DNA of 64,000 nucleotides, from NCBI RefSeq assembly GCF_900109195.1, contig NZ_FNZG01000002.1:814191-878190 (forward strand). Direction: 5' to 3'. Each line of letters starts with the position of its first letter. Position 1 is the first letter of the stretch. Made by a program: the position numbers and the translations under genes. The notes under the pieces were generated by a model that saw only the letters and a list, made by a program, of their open reading frames with translations, did no database searches and had not been told where the DNA came from. Positions 46,190 to 59,028 of the stretch are shown in pieces. Origin of the DNA: Pseudooceanicola nitratireducens (GTDB lineage Bacteria; Pseudomonadota; Alphaproteobacteria; Rhodobacterales; Rhodobacteraceae).

Positions 46190-46283
46190 GGGCGCAGGGC
46201 TTTGAATGGGAATGCTGTCACAGGCGTCACGTGTCTTGTTTTCAGGGCTGAAATGCCTCCGATAAGGGCGGCGAAGGCAGGTG

Positions 46284-46298
46284 AGTATAGCGCATACT
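46284..46298. promoter_or_regulatory. Candidate LysR box before the dioxygenase gene
   Basis: AGTAT-AGCGC-ATACT is a 15-base perfect inverted repeat with the GTAT/ATAC core typical of LysR binding sites, about 136 bases before the dioxygenase ATG and 95 bases from the LysR start. The rest of 46190-46433 shows no gene. Confidence 0.55.
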
Positions 46299-46433
46299 TA
46301 TGGCAAGGGACAGGCTTTCAACTTGCCGCAGGGGGATGGCGATGAAATCACCACCCCCAGGGAAACGGAGGAGAGATCGCCCGCCAAGGGCCGGTCACGC
46401 CTCCGTCAGCGCGGAGGCAACCAAGGGATCGCA

Positions 46434-47393
46434 ATGGAACAGCCGACCAACCCCAGCATGGATCTTGCGCATCTTGGCCATGTCGAGATGCTGACCGACA
46501 AATACGAGGAAAGCCTGGATTTCTTCACCCGCGTCTACGGTCTGAAACTGTCCGGAGAGGACGAGACCAGCGCCTATCTGCGGGCCTGGGACGATTACGA
46601 ATTCCACACGCTGAAATTGACCCGCGCCGAGACGACGGGCGTCGGGCATATCGGCTATCGCGCCGCCAGCCCCGAGGCGCTGGAGCGGCGCGTGGCGGTG
46701 ATCGAGGCCTCAGGCTACAAGACCCACGGCTGGGTCGAAGGCGATCTGGGCCATGGCCGCGCCTTCCGGTTCGAAGACCCCTTCGGCCATGTCTTCGAGA
46801 TCTACTATGACACCCGCTGGTACGAGGCCGAGGGCGAAGACCAGGCGGCACTGAAGAACACCGCCTCGTCCTTCACCGGGGCGGCCCCGCGAAGGATCGA
46901 CCACCTGAACCTGCTGTCCGAGGATGTCACCGAATTCCGCCGCTTCATGGAGACCTGCCTGGGGTCGCGCGTGACGGAATACATCCAGCTGGACAACGGG
47001 CGGATCGGCGGATGCTGGTTCACGGTCAACAACAAGACCTATGACCTGGCCTGTACCGAGGAACACGGCGGCGGCGATGGCCGGTTGCATCACGTGACCT
47101 ATGCCACCGACCAGCGCGAAGACATCCTGCGCGCCGCCGATATCTTCCTGCAGAACGGGGTGCATATCGAAACCGGCCCGCACAAGCACGCGATCCAGGG
47201 AACCTTCTTCCTGTATGTCTGGGAACCGGCGGGCAACCGGGTCGAACTGGCCAATGCCGGGGCGCGGCTGATCCTGGCCCCGGACTGGCAGCCGGTGAAA
47301 TGGACCGAAAGCGATCGCAAGAAGGGCCAGGCCTGGGGGCTGAAGACCATTCCGTCCTTCCACACCCATGGTACGCCGCCGGTCAAAGGCTAG
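46434..47393 (+). CDS. VOC-superfamily extradiol (type I) ring-cleavage dioxygenase-like protein
   Basis: A 319-residue two-domain vicinal-oxygen-chelate protein built like catechol 2,3-dioxygenases. The N-terminal module ([20 protein letters not shown]) is structural. The C-terminal module carries the expected Fe(II) triad: His in RRIDHLNLL, His in GRLHHVTYA and Glu in [10 protein letters not shown]. The ATG at 46434 follows AAGGGATCGC; the frame is open upstream. It precedes a LigK-type aldolase by 61 bases in one operon. Expected reaction: meta-cleavage of a catechol-like diol. The substrate, and whether it is gallate-, protocatechuate- or catechol-like, is not determined. Confidence 0.87.
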
Positions 47394-47454
47394 GCCGCCC
47401 CCCGGGGCAGTGCGTCCTGCATGGATCGGGACATCAGCAAGGAAAGTGAACAAG

Positions 47455-48126
47455 ATGGCAGTTGTCGTACAGAACATACCCCGCGCGGAGGCACCGGTGA
47501 TCGACGCCCTGGGCCGGGCCGGTGTGGCCACGGTGCACGAGGCGCAGGGGCGCAAGGGATGCCTGCAAAGCCACATGCGGCCGATCTATTCCGGCGCGCA
47601 GATCGCGGGATCGGCGGTCACCATCTCGGCCCCGCCGGGGGACAACTGGATGGTGCATGTAGCGATCGAACAGCTGCAAGAGGGCGACATCCTGGTGCTT
47701 GCCCCGACCTCGCCCTGCGACAACGGGTATTTCGGCGATCTGCTGGCCACAAGCGCCATGGCGCGCGGCTGTCGCGGGCTGGTGATCGACGCGGGCGTGC
47801 GCGACATCCGCGATCTGACGCAGATGGGCTTCCCGGTCTGGTCGCGGGCGATTTCCGCGCAGGGCACGGTGAAGGAAACGCTTGGCTCGGTGAACGTGCC
47901 GGTGGTCTGCGCCGGTCAGACGATCCAGGCGGGCGACATCATCGTGGCCGATGACGATGGTGTCTGTGTCGTTCGCCGGGACGAGGCCGAGGCGGTGCTG
48001 GAAAAGGCCGAAGCACGCCTTGCCGCCGAAGAGGCCAAGCGCCAGCGCCTGGCCAGCGGAGAGCTGGGGCTGGACATCTACGACATGCGCGGACGGCTGG
48101 CCGAGAAAGGGCTGAAGTACGTCTAA
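47455..48126 (+). CDS. ligK: 4-carboxy-4-hydroxy-2-oxoadipate aldolase/oxaloacetate decarboxylase (LigK/ProA type)
   Basis: A 223-residue class II-type pyruvate aldolase of the RraA-like fold. The enzyme splits 4-carboxy-4-hydroxy-2-oxoadipate into pyruvate and oxaloacetate, the last step of the protocatechuate 4,5-cleavage and gallate pathways. The Mg-binding signature [14 protein letters not shown], with the upstream glycine-containing [10 protein letters not shown] loop, and the C-terminal [13 protein letters not shown] match LigK/ProA proteins well, as does length (LigK about 228). ATG 47455 follows AAGGAAAGTG. Cotranscribed with the extradiol dioxygenase-like gene; hydratase and dehydrogenase of the classical pathway are not adjacent. 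An RraA ribonuclease inhibitor is less likely given these motifs. Confidence 0.85.
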
Positions 48127-49915: not shown

Positions 49916-50779
49916 TTAGGTGTTCCGGAAGATCCGGGATTCCCCCAGCATGTTCTCCAGCGCCGCGATCCGTTCGGCGCTTTGATCCGGGCCAAGGCGC
50001 TGGATCTCGGCCACCAGCGCCTCGATCAGGAAGTTGATGGCCAGGGTGCTGTCCCAGCTTGACGGCACCTCGACCATCGAGCGGAAGGTATGCGCGGCGA
50101 CCTTTTCGATAGGCGATCCCCAGGCATCGGTGAACAGCACGATGCGCGCGCCCTGTTCGACGGCCAGGCGGGCCAGCTTCTCAAGCTCGCGTTCATACCG
50201 GCGGATGTCGAAGACCACGAGGACCGAGGTTTCGTTCATGTCCAGCAGCGACTGCGGCCAGACCGAGGGCGAGCTGTCCAGCAGGTGCACGTTCGGCCGG
50301 ATGATCTGCAGGTGGTTGAAGAAGTAATGCGCGTTCGACCGGGTGATGCGCCCGCCCAGCAGGTAGATACGCATCGTGGGATCCGACAGCAGCTGACCAA
50401 CCGCGTCGAATTCGGCAAGGTCCAGCCGGTCGAGCGTGCGGTTGATGTTCGATGACACGGTTTCGGCAAACTGCGACACGATATGGTCGCGGGCATCGGT
50501 CAGGGCGGCGTCCAGCTTGGCCAGGGGGCGTTTGATCCGTTCGGCCAGTTCTTCGCGGATGGCATTCTGCAGGTCGGGAAAGCCGTCAAAGCCCAGCTTG
50601 CGCGCCAGGCGGATCACCGTCGGGGTCGAGACCTCGGCCATCTCGGCCAGGCGGGTGATCGATTGCAGCCCGGCGACCAGCGAATCCTCTTGCAGCACGG
50701 CCGAGAGCTTGCGTTCGGACGCGGTCAGATCGGACTGCCGTTCCCGCAGCAGGTCCCGAACCAGTGGTCTGCTTTCCAA
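49916..50779 (-). CDS. RpiR/MurR-family transcriptional regulator
   Basis: A 287-residue regulator with an N-terminal HTH (about residues 1-77; ITRLAEMAEVSTPTVIRLARKLGFDGFPDL) and a C-terminal SIS sugar-isomerase-like sensing domain (about 110-250; TMRIYLLGGRITRSNAHYF, then LVVFDIRRYERELEKLA). Start is a TTG at 50779 with AAGGAACC just upstream. It is divergent from the amidohydrolase-TRAP-ligase operon and very likely its regulator, with two inverted repeats between. RpiR proteins usually sense phosphosugars, but relatives in amino-compound catabolism exist, so the ligand is open. Confidence 0.93.
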   Translation of the reverse strand: MESRPLVRDLLRERQSDLTASERKLSAVLQEDSLVAGLQSITRLAEMAEVSTPTVIRLARKLGFDGFPDLQNAIREELAERIKRPLAKLDAALTDARDHIVSQFAETVSSNINRTLDRLDLAEFDAVGQLLSDPTMRIYLLGGRITRSNAHYFFNHLQIIRPNVHLLDSSPSVWPQSLLDMNETSVLVVFDIRRYERELEKLARLAVEQGARIVLFTDAWGSPIEKVAAHTFRSMVEVPSSWDSTLAINFLIEALVAEIQRLGPDQSAERIAALENMLGESRIFRNT

Positions 50780-50794
50780 GGTGGTTCCTTTCTG

Positions 50795-50815
50795 TACAAA
50801 CTCTGCGCGTTTGTA
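50795..50815. promoter_or_regulatory. Inverted repeat operator 1 in RpiR-divergent region
   Basis: TACAAAC-N7-GTTTGTA is a perfect 21-base inverted repeat 16 bases upstream of the RpiR start, suitable for autoregulation. Confidence 0.7.
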
Positions 50816-50836
50816 AAAATAGTTACAGGAATATTC

Positions 50837-50871
50837 TTGACAGGCCAGAAAATTCTGTAGTGATCTCTACA
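50837..50871 (+). promoter_or_regulatory. Promoter with overlapping operator for the gamma-glutamyl-type operon
   Basis: TTGACA (50837-50842) is followed 18 bases later by TGATCT. The 16-base repeat TGTAG-TGATCT-CTACA (50856-50871) overlaps the -10, and CAGAA-AA-TTCTG lies in the spacer. This is a typical repressor-controlled promoter for the amidohydrolase gene starting at 50907. Confidence 0.6.
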
Positions 50872-50906
50872 ACAAGACGAGGGATCGGAACCGGGGGGCA
50901 AAATCC

Positions 50907-51680
50907 GTGCAAGACGACTGGACAGCGGTAGAGCGTTTCCGCCCGGACGGGGCTGCGCCTGTCGTGCTGGTCTGCGAACATGCGTCGCGCCACATTCCCG
51001 CCGATCTGAACGACCTGGGGCTGACGGGGGCGGCGCTGACGTCGCATGCGGCCTGGGATATCGGGGCCCTTGCCGTGGCGCGGGGCCTGGCCGAACGGCT
51101 GGACGCGCCGCTGGTGGCGGGGGCGACATCACGGCTTGTCTATGACCTCAACCGCCCGCTGGAGTCGCCCACGGCGATCCCGCCGGTCAGCGAGGTCTTT
51201 GAAATTCCGGGCAACCAGGGGCTGTCCGACACGGCGCGCCGCGACCGGTTTGACCGGCTTCATACCCCCTTCCATGACGCCCTGGCCGAAACGGTCGCGA
51301 CGCAGCGGGCGCGGGTCGCGGGGCCGGTGGCGCTGATCACCGTGCACAGTTTCACCCGGATCTACCTGGGCCAGGAGCGCGCGGTCGAACTGGGCTATCT
51401 GTTCCATTCTGATGGCGCGCTGGCGCAGGCGGCCTTGCAGGTCGAACAGACCCGCGGGCAGTACGCAAGCGCGCTGAACGAACCCTACGGGGCCGGGGAC
51501 GGCGTGACCTACACGCTTGAAAAACATGGCGAAAGCCAGGGTCTGCCCGCGCTGATGATCGAGGTGCAGAACGACCTGATCGAGCCGCCGGAAGGCGCGG
51601 CCGCCATGGCCGATCACCTGGCCGAGACGCTGCGCGCGATCCTGCCGCAGCCGGGACAGACACAGGAGGCCACCGCATGA
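50907..51680 (+). CDS. N-formylglutamate amidohydrolase-family protein
   Basis: A 257-residue zinc-type hydrolase of the FGase fold (HutG-like), which cleaves an amide such as N-formyl-L-glutamate to glutamate. VLVCEHASRHIP at residues about 19-30 is the conserved metal-binding opening motif; VALITVHSFTRIY is the second conserved block. Start is GTG at 50907. It heads the operon and overlaps the TRAP small permease (ATGA). In a histidine-degradation cluster one would expect hut genes; none are here. With a glutamine-synthetase-like ligase three genes on, it might instead hydrolyse a gamma-glutamyl product. This alternative role is inference. Confidence 0.87.
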   Translation: MQDDWTAVERFRPDGAAPVVLVCEHASRHIPADLNDLGLTGAALTSHAAWDIGALAVARGLAERLDAPLVAGATSRLVYDLNRPLESPTAIPPVSEVFEIPGNQGLSDTARRDRFDRLHTPFHDALAETVATQRARVAGPVALITVHSFTRIYLGQERAVELGYLFHSDGALAQAALQVEQTRGQYASALNEPYGAGDGVTYTLEKHGESQGLPALMIEVQNDLIEPPEGAAAMADHLAETLRAILPQPGQTQEATA

Positions 51681-52261
51681 AGGCGATGCGCCGCTTCATC
51701 ACGGTGGTGGATGCGTTCAACTACCGCCTGGGCCGGCTGATGATGTTCGGCATCTTCGTCCTGATGGGCGTTCTGCTGTGGTCGACCTTTTCCAAGGCGG
51801 CCGGAAGCCCGTCGCTGTGGACGCTGGAAATGGCCCAGTTCATCATGGTCGGCTATTACATCCTGGGCGGGCCCTACGCGATCCAGATGGGATCGAACGT
51901 ACGGATGGACCTGTTCTATGGCGATTTCTCGCCCCGCCGGAAGGCCTGGTTCGACGCGATCACCGTCTTCTTCCTGCTGGCCTACCTGGGCGTGCTGCTG
52001 TGGGGCGGGATCGAGTCGACGATCTACGCCTTCCAATACGGCGGTGAGAGGTCGTCGTCGGTCTGGCGGCCCTATATCTGGCCGATCAAGGTCATCATGT
52101 GCACGGGCATCACCTTGATGCTGCTGCAATCGCTGTCCGAGCTGTTCAAGGACATCATCTTCCTTAAAACCGGAAAGCCGATGCGCCCTGATCAGGGTGC
52201 GGGTCCGGATCAGAAAAACACAGCCTCTGCCGATCAGAAAGACGCCGCCGATGCCCTATGA
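51677..52261 (+). CDS. TRAP transporter small permease (DctQ family)
   Basis: A 194-residue membrane protein with four predicted helices between residues 15 and 165. MMFGIFVLMGVLLWSTFSKA and YILGGPYAIQMGSNVRMDLF are recognisable family segments. The polar C-terminal tail (about 25 residues) is longer than usual. Translationally coupled by ATGA to the upstream hydrolase and overlapping the large permease by 11 bases. Confidence 0.9.
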   Translation: MKAMRRFITVVDAFNYRLGRLMMFGIFVLMGVLLWSTFSKAAGSPSLWTLEMAQFIMVGYYILGGPYAIQMGSNVRMDLFYGDFSPRRKAWFDAITVFFLLAYLGVLLWGGIESTIYAFQYGGERSSSVWRPYIWPIKVIMCTGITLMLLQSLSELFKDIIFLKTGKPMRPDQGAGPDQKNTASADQKDAADAL

Positions 52262-53579
52262 GCTGATCGCCATCCTCATGTTCTCGACCATGATGGTCAT
52301 GCTGTTCACCGGGCAGCGTGTCTTCGGGGCCATCGGCTTTGTCGCCGTCATCGCGGCGATCCTGCTGTGGGGCGACCGGGGCGGCTATGACATCGGGTTT
52401 TCCGCCGCGATCAAGCTGATGCGGTGGTATCCGCTGCTGACCCTGCCGATGTTCATCTTCATGGGCTACGTGATGTCGGAATCGAAGATTGCCGACGACC
52501 TGTACAAGATGTTCCACGTCTGGATGGGCGGGCTGTCGGGCGGGCTGGCCATTGGCACGATCTTCCTGATGGTGCTGATTTCCGCCATGAACGGCCTGTC
52601 GGTCGCGGGCATGGCCATCGGGGCCACCATCGCGCTGCCGGAACTGCTGAAACGCGGCTATGACAAGACAATGGTGACCGGGGTGATCCAGGCGGGGTCC
52701 TCGCTTGGGATCCTGGTGCCGCCCTCGGTCGTGCTGGTGTTGTACGCGATGATCGCGCGGCAACCCGTGGGGCAGCTGTGGCTGGCGGGCGTGCTGCCGG
52801 GGCTGATGATGGCGGCGCTTTTCGTGATCTACATCGCCGTGCGCTGCAAGCTGAACCCGGCGCTTGGCCCGGTGCTGCCCAAGGAAGAACGCGACGCCGT
52901 TCCCCTGGGCGAAAAGCTGCGGCTGCTGCGGGCGGGGCTGCTGCCGCTGGCGATCTTCTTCATCATGATGTTTCCCTTCGTGAAGGGCTATACCTCGCTT
53001 GTCGAAAGCTCGGCCATCGGGGCGCTGGCGGCCTTCCTGGCGGCGGTGCTGAAGGGCCGGATGACGCGCAGGGTGTTCGAAACCTGCATCCGCCAGACCC
53101 TGGGCATCACCTGCATGTTCATGTGGATCATCCTGGCGGCGCTGGCCTTTGGCGCGGTCTTCGACGGGCTGGGCGCGGTCAAGGCGATCGAGAGCCTCTT
53201 TACCGAACGGCTGGGCCTGAACCCCTGGGTCATCCTGATCCTGATGCAGCTGTCCTTCCTGGTGATGGGCACCTTCCTGGACGACACCGCCATGCTGGTC
53301 ATCGTTGCGCCGCTTTACGTGCCGCTTGTTGGCGAGCTGGGGTTCAACCTGATCTGGTACGGTGTGCTGTATACGATCACCTGTCAGATCGCCTATATGA
53401 CGCCGCCCTTCGGCTATAACCTGTTTCTGATGCGGGCCATGGCCCCGCCCGAGATCGGGCTGAAGGACATCTACCGGTCCATCATCCCCTTCGTGGGTGT
53501 CATGGTGGTGGCGCTGGTGATCGTCATGGCCTTCCCGCAGATCGCCCTTTGGCTGCCTGATCTGATCTATTCCAGATGA
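52251..53579 (+). CDS. TRAP transporter large permease (DctM family)
   Basis: A 442-residue permease with about 12 hydrophobic segments. LISAMNGLSVAGMAIGATIALPELLKR, SSLGILVPPSVVLVLYAMIA and MGTFLDDTAMLVIVAPLYVPL are hallmark regions, and ITCQIAYMTPPFGYNLFLM is near the end. It is of the type found with tat-exported binding proteins (FcbT-like). The ATG at 52251 lies inside the small-permease 3' end by overlap. Together with DctQ and the binding protein it completes the third TRAP system. Confidence 0.93.
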   Translation: MPYELIAILMFSTMMVMLFTGQRVFGAIGFVAVIAAILLWGDRGGYDIGFSAAIKLMRWYPLLTLPMFIFMGYVMSESKIADDLYKMFHVWMGGLSGGLAIGTIFLMVLISAMNGLSVAGMAIGATIALPELLKRGYDKTMVTGVIQAGSSLGILVPPSVVLVLYAMIARQPVGQLWLAGVLPGLMMAALFVIYIAVRCKLNPALGPVLPKEERDAVPLGEKLRLLRAGLLPLAIFFIMMFPFVKGYTSLVESSAIGALAAFLAAVLKGRMTRRVFETCIRQTLGITCMFMWIILAALAFGAVFDGLGAVKAIESLFTERLGLNPWVILILMQLSFLVMGTFLDDTAMLVIVAPLYVPLVGELGFNLIWYGVLYTITCQIAYMTPPFGYNLFLMRAMAPPEIGLKDIYRSIIPFVGVMVVALVIVMAFPQIALWLPDLIYSR

Positions 53580-53634
53580 ACCATAAGGCCGGATCAACCG
53601 GTCGCGTAATTCGAAACCAACAGGAGAGAGAGTA

Positions 53635-54672
53635 ATGACAACAAGACGTTCCTTCCTTCGCGGCGCAGCGGCCGCGGCCCCGGCGGCGCTGGCTGCTCCG
53701 GCCGTCGTCCGGGCGCAAAGCGCAATCAAGTGGCGCTGGCAGACCTATGCCGGTGCGGCGCTTGGCGAACATGTGACCAAGCCGATCGTCGACTACATCA
53801 ACAACGCCTCCAATGGTGAGCTCGAGGTCGAGCTGTTCTACGCCGATCAGATCGTCCCGACCGGAGAGCTGTTCCAGGCGCTGCAGCGTGGCACCATCGA
53901 CGCGGTGCATTCGGACGACGACTCGATGGCGTCGCCGACCCCGCTGCGCCAGTTCGGCGGCTATTTCCCCTTTGCCACCAAGCACATCCTCGACGTGCCG
54001 GTGCTGTTCAACCAGTACGGCCTGAAAGAGATCTGGGAAGAGGAATACGCCAAGGTCGGCGTCAAGTGGCTGTCGGCCGCGGGTCAGGACCCGTGTAACT
54101 TCAACACCAAGAAGGAAATCACCTCGGTCGCGGATCTGGACGGGCTGAAGCTTTATACCTTCCCGACCGCGGGCCGCTTCCTGGCGCAATTCGGCGTCGT
54201 GCCGATGAACATTCCTTACGAGGATGCCGAGGTCGCGGTGCAGACCGGTGAGCTGGACGGTATGGCCTGGTCGGGCATCACCGAGGATTACACCGTCGGC
54301 TGGGCGAACGTCACCGACTACTTCCTGACCAACAACATCTCGGGGGCTTGGATCGGGTCCTACTTCGTGAACGAGAAACGTTGGGCGGACCTGCCCGAGC
54401 ACCTCAAGGCCGTCGTCATGTCGGCAATCGAAGCCGGTCACACCTACCGCAACCAGTGGTACTGGGGCGGCGAGGCCAAGCTGCGCGCCACCGGCGATCA
54501 GCTGGAACTGCGCACCGTGCCGGCCGCCGAATGGGCCGAGGTCGAAAATGCCGCCAAGGCCTTCTGGGAAGAGATTGCCCAGGAAGGTGAAATCCAGCAG
54601 AAGATCGTCAACATCTTCAAGGAATACAACGGCGTCATCAACCAGGCAGGCCCGCCGTACACCAACGGCTGA
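53635..54672 (+). CDS. TRAP transporter solute-binding subunit with Tat signal
   Basis: A 345-residue periplasmic binding protein. MTTRRSFLRGAAAAAPAALA is a twin-arginine signal (RRSFLRG) with cleavage near residue 28, consistent with export of a folded protein. The mature core contains the DctP Arg-region variant DLDGLKLYTFPTAGRFLAQF and multiple aromatic residues (WRWQTY, WYWGGEAK), suggesting a ligand with a non-carboxylate or amine group rather than a simple dicarboxylate. FcbT1-like binding proteins share this style. Third position in the TRAP set; a stem-loop follows its stop. Confidence 0.92.
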   Translation: MTTRRSFLRGAAAAAPAALAAPAVVRAQSAIKWRWQTYAGAALGEHVTKPIVDYINNASNGELEVELFYADQIVPTGELFQALQRGTIDAVHSDDDSMASPTPLRQFGGYFPFATKHILDVPVLFNQYGLKEIWEEEYAKVGVKWLSAAGQDPCNFNTKKEITSVADLDGLKLYTFPTAGRFLAQFGVVPMNIPYEDAEVAVQTGELDGMAWSGITEDYTVGWANVTDYFLTNNISGAWIGSYFVNEKRWADLPEHLKAVVMSAIEAGHTYRNQWYWGGEAKLRATGDQLELRTVPAAEWAEVENAAKAFWEEIAQEGEIQQKIVNIFKEYNGVINQAGPPYTNG

Positions 54673-54728
54673 CCCGTCGACGATGACGATGCAGGGCGGC
54701 CCCGCGCGGGCCCTCCTAACGAAACAGC

Positions 54729-54752
54729 AAGGTGGCCTTTCGGGGCCACCTT
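54729..54752. other. Intercistronic stem-loop after TRAP binding-protein gene
   Basis: AAGGTGGCC-TTTCGG-GGCCACCTT is a perfect 9-base stem in the gap between the binding protein and the ligase gene. No T-tract follows; it may stabilise upstream mRNA. Confidence 0.6.
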
Positions 54753-54776
54753 GGCGCGTGAAACAAGGGGAAAGAC

Positions 54777-56141
54777 ATGCCGGGCAACCTGACATTCGAA
54801 ACGCTCAAGGAAATGGCCGCGACCGGGGAAATCGACACCGTTCTGGTGGCCCTGGTGGATATGCAGGGCCGCCTGATGGGCAAACGCTTCCACGTGTCGA
54901 ACTTCATCGAACATTCGGTCGAGGAAACCCATTGCTGCAACTACCTGCTGGCCACCGACCTGGTGATGTCCACGCCCAAGGGGTACAAGGCGACCTCGTG
55001 GGAGTCGGGCTATGGCGACTATACGCTGAAGCCTGACCTGTCGACGCTGCGTCTGGTTCCCTGGTTGGAAGGTACCGCGCTGGTGCTGGGCGATCTGGAA
55101 GATCACCACACCCATGCCCCCGTCGCCCATTCGCCGCGCGAGATGCTGAAACGCCAGATCGCGCGGCTGAAGGATCTGGGCTTTGACGCCATGATGGCGA
55201 CCGAGCTGGAGTTCTTCCTGTTCGAGAAAGATTACCGGACCCTGCAGAAGGAAGGCTACCAGGAGCTGGTGCCGCTGTCGGGTCACAACGAAGATTACAA
55301 CCTGTTCCAGACCACCAAGGAAGAGGGCATGATGCGCCCGCTGCGCAATCATTTGGTCGGTGCCGGCATCCCGGTCGAGAACACCAAGGGCGAGGCCGAG
55401 CTGGGCCAGCAGGAGTTGAACATCCGCTACGCCGAAGCGATGGACTGCGCCGACAACCACACGATCGCCAAGCATGCGACCAAGGAAATCGCCTGGGCCA
55501 ACGGCATCTCGGCCTCGTTCCTGGCGAAATGGGCGTCGGACAAGGTCGGGTCGTCCAGCCACGTGCACATGTCGCTGTGGAAGGGGGCGGAGGCCGCGTT
55601 CTTCGACAAGAATGACGAACACGGCATGTCCCCGGTGATGAAGAACTTCTGCGCGGGTCTGATCAAATACGCCCGCGACTACACCTTCTTCCTGGCCCCT
55701 TACGTCAACAGCTATAAACGCTTTGCCAAGGGCACCTTTGCGCCGACGAAATCGGTCTGGTCCGTCGACAACCGCACCGCCGCCTTCCGTCTGTGTGGCG
55801 AAGGCACCAAGGGCGTGCGCATGGAATGCCGGATCGGCGGGTCGGATCTGAACCCCTACCTGGCACAGGCCGCGCTTCTGGCCGCCGGGATCAAGGGCAT
55901 CGAAGAGGGGCTGGAACTGGCCCCGCCGACCCGCGGCGATGTCTACGACGCCGAGAACGTCGAAGAAATCCCGACGTCCCTGCGCGAGGCGACCGAGACG
56001 CTGAAGAATTCGGCCCTGCTGCGCGAGGCCTTTGGCGATTTCGTCGTGGATCACTATGTCCGCTGCGCCGAATGGGAGCAGGAGGAATACGACCGCATCG
56101 TCACCGACTGGGAAATCGAACGCGGGTTCGAACGGGCCTGA
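54777..56141 (+). CDS. Glutamine synthetase-family ligase (gamma-glutamyl-amine ligase, PuuA-like)
   Basis: A 454-residue glutamine-synthetase-fold ligase. The beta-grasp N-terminus (DTVLVALVDMQGRLMGKRF) is followed by metal and ATP residues in MATELEFFLFEK and GSSSHVHMSLWKG (the substrate His). It then has YVNSYKRFAKGTFAPTKSVW and the arginine motifs NRTAAFRL and RMECRIGGSDLNPYLAQAAL. GS-like proteins of this size without the adenylylation Tyr region include PuuA (gamma-glutamylputrescine), IpuC (isopropylamine) and GlnA4 (ethanolamine) ligases. The neighbouring alcohol and aldehyde dehydrogenases and hydrolase support gamma-glutamylation of an amino alcohol. Substrate unproved. Confidence 0.9.
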   Translation: MPGNLTFETLKEMAATGEIDTVLVALVDMQGRLMGKRFHVSNFIEHSVEETHCCNYLLATDLVMSTPKGYKATSWESGYGDYTLKPDLSTLRLVPWLEGTALVLGDLEDHHTHAPVAHSPREMLKRQIARLKDLGFDAMMATELEFFLFEKDYRTLQKEGYQELVPLSGHNEDYNLFQTTKEEGMMRPLRNHLVGAGIPVENTKGEAELGQQELNIRYAEAMDCADNHTIAKHATKEIAWANGISASFLAKWASDKVGSSSHVHMSLWKGAEAAFFDKNDEHGMSPVMKNFCAGLIKYARDYTFFLAPYVNSYKRFAKGTFAPTKSVWSVDNRTAAFRLCGEGTKGVRMECRIGGSDLNPYLAQAALLAAGIKGIEEGLELAPPTRGDVYDAENVEEIPTSLREATETLKNSALLREAFGDFVVDHYVRCAEWEQEEYDRIVTDWEIERGFERA

Positions 56142-56142
56142 T

Positions 56143-56511
56143 ATGATCGAACGTATCGACCACCTCGTCCTCACCGTGCGGGACATTGAGGCCTCGGTTG
56201 CCTTCTACACCCGCGTGCTGGGGGTCGAGGCCGTGACATTTGCCGGGGGGCGGCGCGCGCTGGCCTTCGGCAATCAGAAGATCAACCTGCAGACCCTGGG
56301 CCAGGAACAGCGTAATCACGCCTGTATCGGGTCGGGGGATCTGTGTCTGATCACCAACTGGCCGGTTCAGGACGTGCTTGACCGGCTGGCACAGGAAAAC
56401 ATCGCCGTGGTGGAAGGGCCGGTTGCGAAATCGGGCGCTCTAGGTCCCATCACCTCGGTCTATTTCAATGACCCCGATGGCAATCTGATCGAAGTGAGCC
56501 GCTATGACTGA
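56143..56511 (+). CDS. VOC-superfamily small metalloprotein (glyoxalase/virulence-protein-like)
   Basis: A 122-residue single VOC domain (MIERIDHLVLTVRDIEASVAFYTRVLGV), with likely metal ligands His7 and a C-terminal Glu in DPDGNLIEVSRYD. ATG at 56143 directly follows the ligase stop (one base apart). Its stop overlaps the aldehyde dehydrogenase by 8 bases. Such small VOC proteins are often called glyoxalases or biphenyl-2,3-diol-like, without proven activity. Position in the operon suggests an auxiliary step or isomerisation in the amine pathway. Confidence 0.87.
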   Translation: MIERIDHLVLTVRDIEASVAFYTRVLGVEAVTFAGGRRALAFGNQKINLQTLGQEQRNHACIGSGDLCLITNWPVQDVLDRLAQENIAVVEGPVAKSGALGPITSVYFNDPDGNLIEVSRYD

Positions 56512-57886
56512 CATGTTGCAATGTATCTCTCCGATTGACGGTAGCGTCTTTGCGGAACGCCCTGTCCTGACGCTGGACGAAGGCAAGGCCGCCGCCGCCC
56601 GCGCGCGTGACGCGCAGGCCGCCTGGGCCGCGCGCCCCCTGCAGGAGCGGATCGACCTGGTGATGGCCGGTGTCGCCGCCGTCGGCGCGATGAACGACGA
56701 AATCGTGCCCGAACTGGCGCATATGATGGGCCGCCCGGTGAAATTCGGCGGTGAATTCGGCGGCTTCAACGAACGCGCCAGCCATATGGCCAAGATCGCC
56801 GCCGACAGCCTTGCCGATATCGAGGTGGGCGAGGATGAAACCTTCCGCCGCTATATCCGCCGCGTGCCCTGGGGTGTCGTCTTTGTTGTCGCGCCCTGGA
56901 ATTATCCCTACATGACCGCCATCAACACGGTCGCCCCGGCGCTGATCGCGGGCAATACCGTGGTGCTGAAACACGCGACCCAGACGCTGCTGGTCGGCGA
57001 ACGCATGGCAAAGGCTTTCCATTCCGCCGGTGTCCCCGAGGATGTGTTCCAGAACGTCTTCCTGTCGCATGACACGACGAACGAACTGCTCAAGGCGCGC
57101 GCCTTCGATTTCGTCAACTTCACCGGATCGGTCGGTGGCGGCCAGGCGATGGAACGCGCGGCGGCGGGCACCTTTGTGCCGGTCTCGACCGAATTGGGCG
57201 GCAAGGACCCGGGCTATGTGATGGAGGACGCGGATCTGGACGCGGCGGTCAATACGCTGATGGACGGGGCGCTGTTCAACTCGGGCCAGTGCTGCTGCGG
57301 GATCGAACGGATCTACGTGCACGAAAGCCTCTATGACGCCTTTGTGGAAAAGGCCGTCGCCTGGGCGAAAACGTTGAAATTGGGCAATCCGCTGAACGGG
57401 GAAACCACCCTGGGCCCCATGGCGCATGTGCGATTTGCACAACTTGTGCGCGACCAGATCGACGCCGCAGTCGCCGCAGGGGCCGTGGCGCATATCCCGA
57501 CGGACCCGGCCGATGACGGCGGGGCCTATCTGACGCCGCAGGTGCTGACCAATGTGACCCACGACATGGAAGTCATGCGCGAGGAAAGCTTTGGCCCCGT
57601 GGTCGGCATCATGAAGGTGTCTTCCGATGACGAGGCCGTGGCGCTGATGAATGACAGCCACTACGGGTTGACCGCGTCGCTCTGGACAGCGGATATCGAC
57701 CGTGCGGCGGCGATCGGGGACCGGATCGAAACCGGGACCGTCTTCCTCAACCGGGCCGATTACCTGGATCCCGGCTTGTGCTGGACCGGCTGCAAGGATA
57801 CCGGGCGCGGCGGCGGGCTGTCGGTGATCGGCTATCACAACCTGACCCGTCCGAAATCCTACCACATGAAGAAGGTGACATCATGA
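56504..57886 (+). CDS. NAD(P)-dependent aldehyde dehydrogenase
   Basis: A 460-residue dehydrogenase. Motifs: VVAPWNYPYMTAINTVAPAL, VNFTGSVGGGQAM, catalytic Glu in STELGGKDPG, and nucleophile region NSGQCCCGIERIY, where the second Cys of three (Cys264) aligns with the catalytic residue. The unusual CCC triplet is notable. It follows the VOC gene by overlap and is coupled to the alcohol dehydrogenase by ATGA. In the proposed pathway it would oxidise the aldehyde from a gamma-glutamyl amino alcohol to the acid. Confidence 0.92.
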   Translation: MTDMLQCISPIDGSVFAERPVLTLDEGKAAAARARDAQAAWAARPLQERIDLVMAGVAAVGAMNDEIVPELAHMMGRPVKFGGEFGGFNERASHMAKIAADSLADIEVGEDETFRRYIRRVPWGVVFVVAPWNYPYMTAINTVAPALIAGNTVVLKHATQTLLVGERMAKAFHSAGVPEDVFQNVFLSHDTTNELLKARAFDFVNFTGSVGGGQAMERAAAGTFVPVSTELGGKDPGYVMEDADLDAAVNTLMDGALFNSGQCCCGIERIYVHESLYDAFVEKAVAWAKTLKLGNPLNGETTLGPMAHVRFAQLVRDQIDAAVAAGAVAHIPTDPADDGGAYLTPQVLTNVTHDMEVMREESFGPVVGIMKVSSDDEAVALMNDSHYGLTASLWTADIDRAAAIGDRIETGTVFLNRADYLDPGLCWTGCKDTGRGGGLSVIGYHNLTRPKSYHMKKVTS

Positions 57887-59028
57887 GCCTGACCGCCAAC
57901 TGGTCCTATCCCACGGCCATCCGCTTTGGCGCCGGCCGCATCGCCGAACTGCCCGAGGCCTGCATCGCCGCAGGCATGAAGAACCCCCTGCTGGTGACCG
58001 ACAAGGGTCTGAAAAGCATGGAGATCACCACCAAGGCGCTGGACATCCTGGACAGTGCCGGCCTGGGGCGTGGCCTTTTTGCCGAGGTCGACCCCAACCC
58101 GTCAGAGGTCAACCTGGAGGCCGGGCTGAAGGTCTACCGCGAAGGCGGCCATGACGGTGTCATCGCCTTTGGCGGCGGCTCGGGTCTGGATCTGGGCAAG
58201 ATGGTCGCCTTCATGGCGGGTCAGTCGCGCCCGGTCTGGGATTTCGAGGATATCGGCGATTGGTGGACCCGCGCCGACCCCGAAGGCATCGCGCCGATCA
58301 TCGCCGTGCCGACCACCGCCGGCACCGGATCCGAAGTGGGCCGCGCCAGCGTCATCACCAATTCCGAAACCCATGTGAAAAAGATCATCTTCCATCCCAA
58401 GGTGCTGCCGACGGTGGTGATCTGCGACCCCGAGCTGACGGTTGGCATGCCCAAGCATATCACCGCCGGCACCGGCCTTGACGCCTTTGCCCATTGCGTC
58501 GAGGCGTTTTCCTCGCCGCATTACCACCCGATGAGCCAGGGCATCGCGCTCGAGGGCATGCGCTTGGTCATCGACAACCTGCCGCGCGCCTATGACGACG
58601 GCACGGATATCGAGGCGCGGGCGAACATGATGTCCGCCGCCGCCATGGGCGCGACCGCCTTCCAGAAGGGCCTGGGCGCGATCCACGCGATGAGCCACCC
58701 GATTGGCGCGGTCTACAACACGCACCACGGCACCACCAACGCGGTCTGCATGCCCGCCGTTCTGGACCTGAACGCGCCGCTGATCCGCGACAGGTTCGAC
58801 CGGGCCGGGGAATACCTGGGCATTTCCGGCGGCTTCGACGGGTTCCGCAGCTTCGTCGATGATTTCAACGCGCGCTTCCAGATCCCCAAGGGGCTGGGCG
58901 AGATGGGCGTTCAGGCTGACCGCATCGACGACCTGGTCGCCATGGCGCTTGAGGATCCGTCCTGCGGCGGCAACCCCGTCGAACTGACGACCGAGAACCT
59001 GACGGCGCTGTTCAAAGCGGCGATGTAA
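57883..59028 (+). CDS. Iron-containing alcohol dehydrogenase (group III)
   Basis: A 381-residue Fe(II)-dependent alcohol dehydrogenase. GGGSGLDLGKMVAF binds NAD. PTTAGTGSEVGRASV is the family signature, and metal ligands include Asp/His in DAFAHCVEAFSSPHYHP and His residues in GAIHAMSHPIGAVYNTHHGTTNAV. The start overlaps the aldehyde dehydrogenase stop (ATGA). It ends the operon and is followed by a terminator. Likely role: oxidation of the alcohol function of the (gamma-glutamyl) substrate, with the neighbouring aldehyde dehydrogenase taking the next step. Confidence 0.93.
   Translation: MSLTANWSYPTAIRFGAGRIAELPEACIAAGMKNPLLVTDKGLKSMEITTKALDILDSAGLGRGLFAEVDPNPSEVNLEAGLKVYREGGHDGVIAFGGGSGLDLGKMVAFMAGQSRPVWDFEDIGDWWTRADPEGIAPIIAVPTTAGTGSEVGRASVITNSETHVKKIIFHPKVLPTVVICDPELTVGMPKHITAGTGLDAFAHCVEAFSSPHYHPMSQGIALEGMRLVIDNLPRAYDDGTDIEARANMMSAAAMGATAFQKGLGAIHAMSHPIGAVYNTHHGTTNAVCMPAVLDLNAPLIRDRFDRAGEYLGISGGFDGFRSFVDDFNARFQIPKGLGEMGVQADRIDDLVAMALEDPSCGGNPVELTTENLTALFKAAM

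Follow-up and report, generated by a model that had tools for sequence, protein, structure and literature searches.

In the PuuA-PuuB-PuuC-PuuD pathway, putrescine is glutamylated, oxidised and hydrolysed. The same logic would apply to the genes described here, which lie in a 64,000-nucleotide stretch of Pseudooceanicola nitratireducens DNA (the window hereafter means this whole stretch). The putrescine pathway differs in its diamine substrate, in its oxidase and in its hydrolase, which is of the class I amidotransferase type. The Csal_0678 cluster of Chromohalobacter salexigens, as far as the available passages describe it, shares with the window a homologue of EtoX and four enzyme families. 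The structures 4UAB and 4XF5 of Csal_0678 were reportedly presented by Vetting and colleagues in 2015.

The families PF00120, PF00465, PF00171 and PF05013 are tabulated for C. salexigens in a 2022 review (PMC9397018), and the operon in the window contains all four. The GlnA4 pathway of Streptomyces coelicolor (SCO1611-1615) shares with it a glutamine synthetase-like (GS-like) protein, a dehydrogenase, an aldehyde dehydrogenase (ALDH) and an FGase-family hydrolase (PMC6529630, PMC9397018). The gamma-glutamylethanolamide synthetase function of GlnA4 has been shown (PMC9397018). The regulator of that pathway is EpuRI, unlike the RpiR-family regulator in the window (PMC9397018), and the available passages of PMC6529630 and PMC9397018 mention no TRAP importer, whereas the window encodes one.

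In Phaeobacter sp. MED193, the ethanolamine operon MED193_10021-10056 has the order RpiR, gamma-glutamylglycine amidohydrolase (GGAH), EtoV, EtoW, EtoX, ligase (ETAGA), ALDH (GAADDH) and alcohol dehydrogenase (ADH; GETADH), as reported in 2023 (PMC10132767). Five of its proteins were raised on phosphorylethanolamine, and the ocean data of the same study put the share of bacteria with etoX at about 5 to 10%. Compared by its published description, this operon is like that of the window in roles, order and RpiR neighbour. The window has the published order RpiR / GGAH-V-W-X-ligase-ALDH-ADH plus one inserted VOC gene; the legend of the Phaeobacter operon shows no VOC gene, whereas the window has one between the ligase and ALDH genes. 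Based on homology and gene order, we are confident that the window genes represent the operon for ethanolamine utilisation already published for marine Alphaproteobacteria (the eto or gamma-glutamylation route).

Organisation of the operon

A divergent RpiR gene lies next to a run of eight closely spaced genes on the + strand, which encode the FGase, TRAP Q-M-P, the GS-like ligase, the VOC protein, ALDH and the iron-containing ADH (Fe-ADH) (Table 1). Overlaps were observed at four of the seven junctions (FGase/Q, 4 bases; Q/M, 11; VOC/ALDH, 8; ALDH/ADH, 4), and the GS and VOC genes are 1 base apart. The spaced junctions flank the gene of the TRAP binding protein (M-P, 55 bases; P-GS, 104 bases). 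The start of DctM was refined to 52251 (ATG) and that of VOC to 56143. The preliminary description had named the same genes with a divergent RpiR, and had noted overlapping starts and stops at most junctions. Every named gene was found at its place and in its family, and the four overlaps agree with the second statement.

Table 1. Features of the operon region in the window
Feature	Position	Strand	Remarks
RpiR-family regulator (HTH_6 + SIS)	49916..50779	-	divergent, TTG start as listed; same place in Phaeobacter operon
Candidate RpiR operator, palindrome TGTAG-N6-CTACA	50856..50871	.	divergent intergenic region
FGase-family (PF05013) hydrolase, predicted gamma-glutamylglycine amidohydrolase	50907..51680	+	family match, E 2.3e-41
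TRAP small permease DctQ (EtoV-like)	51677..52261	+	family match
TRAP large permease DctM (EtoW-like)	52251..53579	+	family match
TRAP solute-binding protein DctP (EtoX-like), predicted ethanolamine binder	53635..54672	+	4UAB/4XF5 match
GS-like ligase (Gln-synt_C), predicted ethanolamine gamma-glutamylase	54777..56141	+	family match, 5DM3 match, Phe321
Small VOC protein, possible accessory	56143..56511	+	STM3117-type match
Aldehyde dehydrogenase, predicted to convert the gamma-glutamyl aldehyde to gamma-glutamylglycine	56504..57886	+	family; GAADDH position in Phaeobacter
Iron-containing alcohol dehydrogenase, predicted gamma-glutamylethanolamide dehydrogenase	57883..59028	+	family; GETADH position in Phaeobacter

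Two ORFs upstream of the operon (46281-48126 of the window) were inspected by eye. One resembles an extradiol-type VOC dioxygenase with two domains, the second a protein of the RraA/HMG-aldolase family. These are possible aromatic catabolism genes.

Substrate and predicted pathway

The best of the 57 PDB matches of the EtoX-like DctP was 4UAB/4XF5 (E 2.8e-145), and the alignment runs without a gap across residues 27-342 (316 residues). The next match was at 2.5e-19. 4UAB is Csal_0678 with ethanolamine bound (PMC12410723), and Csal_0678 is described as an ethanolamine binder (PMC4646407). In 4UAB, the ethanolamine is held at Glu220 (PMC12410723, PMC4646407). The Glu of the ethanolamine-binding segment (Glu217 of the alignment, with an assumed offset of 3 from Glu220) was kept in all 81 EtoX sequences, that of the window included. 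Csal_0678 does not possess the carboxylate-binding Arg, which is Arg-147 in SiaP (PMC12410723, PMC4646407). The segment likely to lie at this position, placed without an alignment to SiaP, reads GLKLYTF in the window DctP. For Phaeobacter EtoX, a Kd of 7.9 uM was reported for ethanolamine, and phosphorylethanolamine, glycerol phosphates and phosphocholine were not bound (PMC10132767). The preliminary description had left the substrate open; from the match of EtoX to ethanolamine-bound 4UAB and from the published Phaeobacter operon, it is very probably ethanolamine.

A search for EutB (PF06751) gave no match in the same genome (99.22% complete), and only E. coli was positive among 14 control genomes. 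Thus, no classical ammonia-lyase route was found in this genome.

The same gamma-glutamylation logic might serve another amine or amino alcohol, such as alaninol, isopropanolamine, 3-aminopropanol or a polyamine. The GS-like protein also matches the gamma-glutamylputrescine synthetase model NF045547 (200.5 bits, below the cut-off of 650), and the ADH and ALDH families are broad. Moreover, the Phaeobacter EtoX non-binders given in the available passages of PMC10132767 include no other amino alcohols, so that the binding test leaves another substrate standing. However, EtoX matches an ethanolamine-bound structure gap-free and far above the other solved relatives, and the Phaeobacter system combines proteins that rise on phosphorylethanolamine with an EtoX that bound ethanolamine (PMC10132767). 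We therefore consider a substrate other than ethanolamine very unlikely.

The ligase had its best PDB match in 5DM3 (E 7e-203), which we take to be from Chromohalobacter. Phe321 of the ligase aligns where L094, the presumed GlnA of the same genome, has Glu at the flap. This genome possesses three other GS-like genes, and the two besides L094 are also without the Glu. In the GlnA4 model, E327 of glutamine synthetase is replaced by F331 (PMC6529630). The ligase is likewise without Glu327, with Phe321 in its place. Against the type I GlnA model TIGR00653, the score was 234.2 bits, below the cut-off of 429.15.

The FGase scored 27.4 bits against TIGR02017, the HutG (N-formylglutamate deformylase) model, below the cut-off of 278.75. 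Its only PDB match was 2ODF (E 6.1e-56), the hypothetical protein Atu2144, presumably of Agrobacterium from the locus name. A second FGase elsewhere in the genome has a stronger PF05013 score (249.1 vs 143.1 bits) and is perhaps HutG. Although the two window proteins belong to PF00120 and PF05013, a true ammonium-assimilating glutamine synthetase was rejected by the Phe in place of the catalytic Glu and the TIGR00653 score, and the HutG of histidine breakdown by the TIGR02017 score far below cut-off; with the second, stronger FGase and the three other GS-like genes elsewhere in the genome, this pairing has next to no likelihood.

Hydrolysis of gamma-glutamylglycine by a member of the formylglutamate amidohydrolase family was proposed in 2019 (PMC6529630). 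In the available passages of PMC10132767, PMC6529630 and PMC9397018, this step is either annotated or predicted. The preliminary description had regarded the FGase in place of PuuD as a new functional variant. Since the same operon and an FGase-family hydrolase appear in these published passages, the variant is already in print and the claim of novelty was rejected.

No gamma-glutamyl enzyme was named among the best 60 of the 268 PDB matches of ALDH, or among all 43 of Fe-ADH. Neither dehydrogenase matched a profile that specifies a gamma-glutamyl substrate, and all NCBIfam matches among those listed fell short of cut-off.

In the predicted ethanolamine pathway, EtoX would bind ethanolamine in the periplasm and EtoVW would import it. 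The GS-like ligase would use ATP and join ethanolamine to the gamma-carboxyl of glutamate. The resulting gamma-glutamylethanolamide would be converted by Fe-ADH to the aldehyde, and the aldehyde by ALDH to gamma-glutamylglycine. The FGase-type amidohydrolase would then release glycine and glutamate. We infer all of these steps from homology and conserved order. Homology also supports the outline drawn earlier, in which an amino alcohol is imported by TRAP, gamma-glutamylated and oxidised by Fe-ADH and then ALDH, before the FGase-like hydrolase frees the glutamate.

Conservation of the operon among relatives

The related loci analysed were the best 80 of 362 and are therefore close relatives. 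Genes were called as the best tblastn hits with an identity of at least 35%. The eight core genes (RpiR counted, VOC not) showed the order and orientation of the window in 59 of the 80 loci. Because they are ordered alike in so many loci, the arrangement is beyond chance. Gene by gene, the number of loci was 76 for GS, 72 for FGase, 70 each for RpiR and ALDH, 69 for Fe-ADH and 4 for VOC.

For 12 of the other 21 loci, the absent genes are confined to a side with less than 4500 bases of contig. A gene is absent despite sufficient room in the remaining nine: ALDH in L006 and L022; Fe-ADH in L053; GS, ALDH and Fe-ADH in L010, L017 and L028 (L028 is also without RpiR and FGase, on its cut side); and RpiR and FGase in L021, L024 and L076.

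Conservation between the window and another locus, L095, was uneven among the transporter genes, with 84% identity in DctM, 63% in DctP and 57% in DctQ. These parts may have separate histories or merely different rates.

EtoX was detected at E <= 1e-100 in 124 of 196 genomes of the order, at 125 places. At 111 of these places, a same-strand FGase gene lies 1.9-2.7 kb upstream of EtoX. This count covers all 125 EtoX matches and 126 of at least 150 FGase matches; by eye, none of 24 omitted matches is near an EtoX place. Conservation of the FGase only with hut genes, named beforehand as evidence against the pathway, was therefore not observed. No FGase was found in the stretches fetched around all 14 exceptional places. 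In three of them (L107, L108 and L112), GS-ALDH-ADH is present beside EtoX; thus, the operon can occur without the FGase. In the other 11, the fetched stretch showed the TRAP genes and yielded no GS, ALDH or ADH.

Candidate operator and the extra VOC gene

The RpiR protein probably controls the operon, perhaps via the palindrome at 50856. The sequence TGTAGTGATCTCTACA at this position occurs only once in the window. We searched for TGTAG-N6-CTACA with at most one arm mismatch in the RpiR-FGase gaps of the related loci; 10 of the 80 loci, in which RpiR or FGase was not in range, were skipped, and the window, from which the palindrome was derived, was left out. The palindrome was present in 23 of 29 gaps where RpiR is at least 56% identical, exactly in 10. 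These 29 loci are not independent of one another: eight carry Marivita in their titles, and relatedness was uncontrolled. Where RpiR is less than 56% identical, it was present in none of 41 gaps. The split at 56% was chosen post hoc, and the identities fall at 46% or lower or at 56% or higher. Shuffled sequences, which preserve base composition only, gave means of 0.16 for the loci with RpiR at or above 56% and 0.26 for those below. These results suggest that TGTAG-N6-CTACA is a candidate operator that tracks one class of RpiR.

The best match of the VOC protein is to STM3117-type VOC proteins. The gene lies between GS and ALDH also in L001-L004, of which L001 and L002 come from Pseudooceanicola relatives. 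The idea that VOC belongs to the pathway in every case was rejected, since only 4 of the 80 related loci carry the gene. One of the ten best VOC matches in the 196 genomes is the window's own. Four of the ten showed the arrangement GS-VOC-ALDH-ADH on direct reading (L095, L096, where GS is cut by the contig end, L098 and L100). Three others lie 1440-1441 bases past EtoX, compared with 1471 for the window's own, a comparison of position only. The last two (L097 and L099) have no operon gene near.

L098 and L100: No TRAP, EtoX or FGase gene was found near the ligase-VOC-ALDH-ADH cluster. Thus, VOC goes there with the enzymes. At 1e-30, no FGase match was obtained for genome G073, which is listed with none and whose EtoX stretch (L101) is one of the 14 exceptions above, or for genome G172, which is absent from the 148 matching genomes. 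By eye, from the first residues, the cluster is flanked by an FAD amino-acid oxidase-like gene on one side and a hydroxyacid dehydrogenase-like gene on the other.

A wider VOC search through the class (190 genomes, E <= 1e-40) matched a single genome, the one to which the window belongs. The VOC proteins of operon members and those of L097 and L099 read INLQTLGQE; L104 and STM3117 read INLH. With more doubt than confidence, we put forward as a joint proposal that in some of these bacteria VOC is an accessory enzyme dedicated to the gamma-glutamyl-ethanolamine route, for example to remove an aldehyde or a gamma-glutamyl by-product that has cyclised, and that RpiR controls the operon through TGTAG-N6-CTACA.

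The operon in the window is very probably another copy of a known and common marine-bacterial operon, ordinary but for one small extra gene. Ethanolamine from membrane lipids is a marine source of nitrogen and carbon. For the genes described here, our survey names a very probable substrate and counts how constant the FGase is. It also contributes two minor leads, a candidate operator and a VOC gene that in some genomes accompanies the enzymes and not the transporter.
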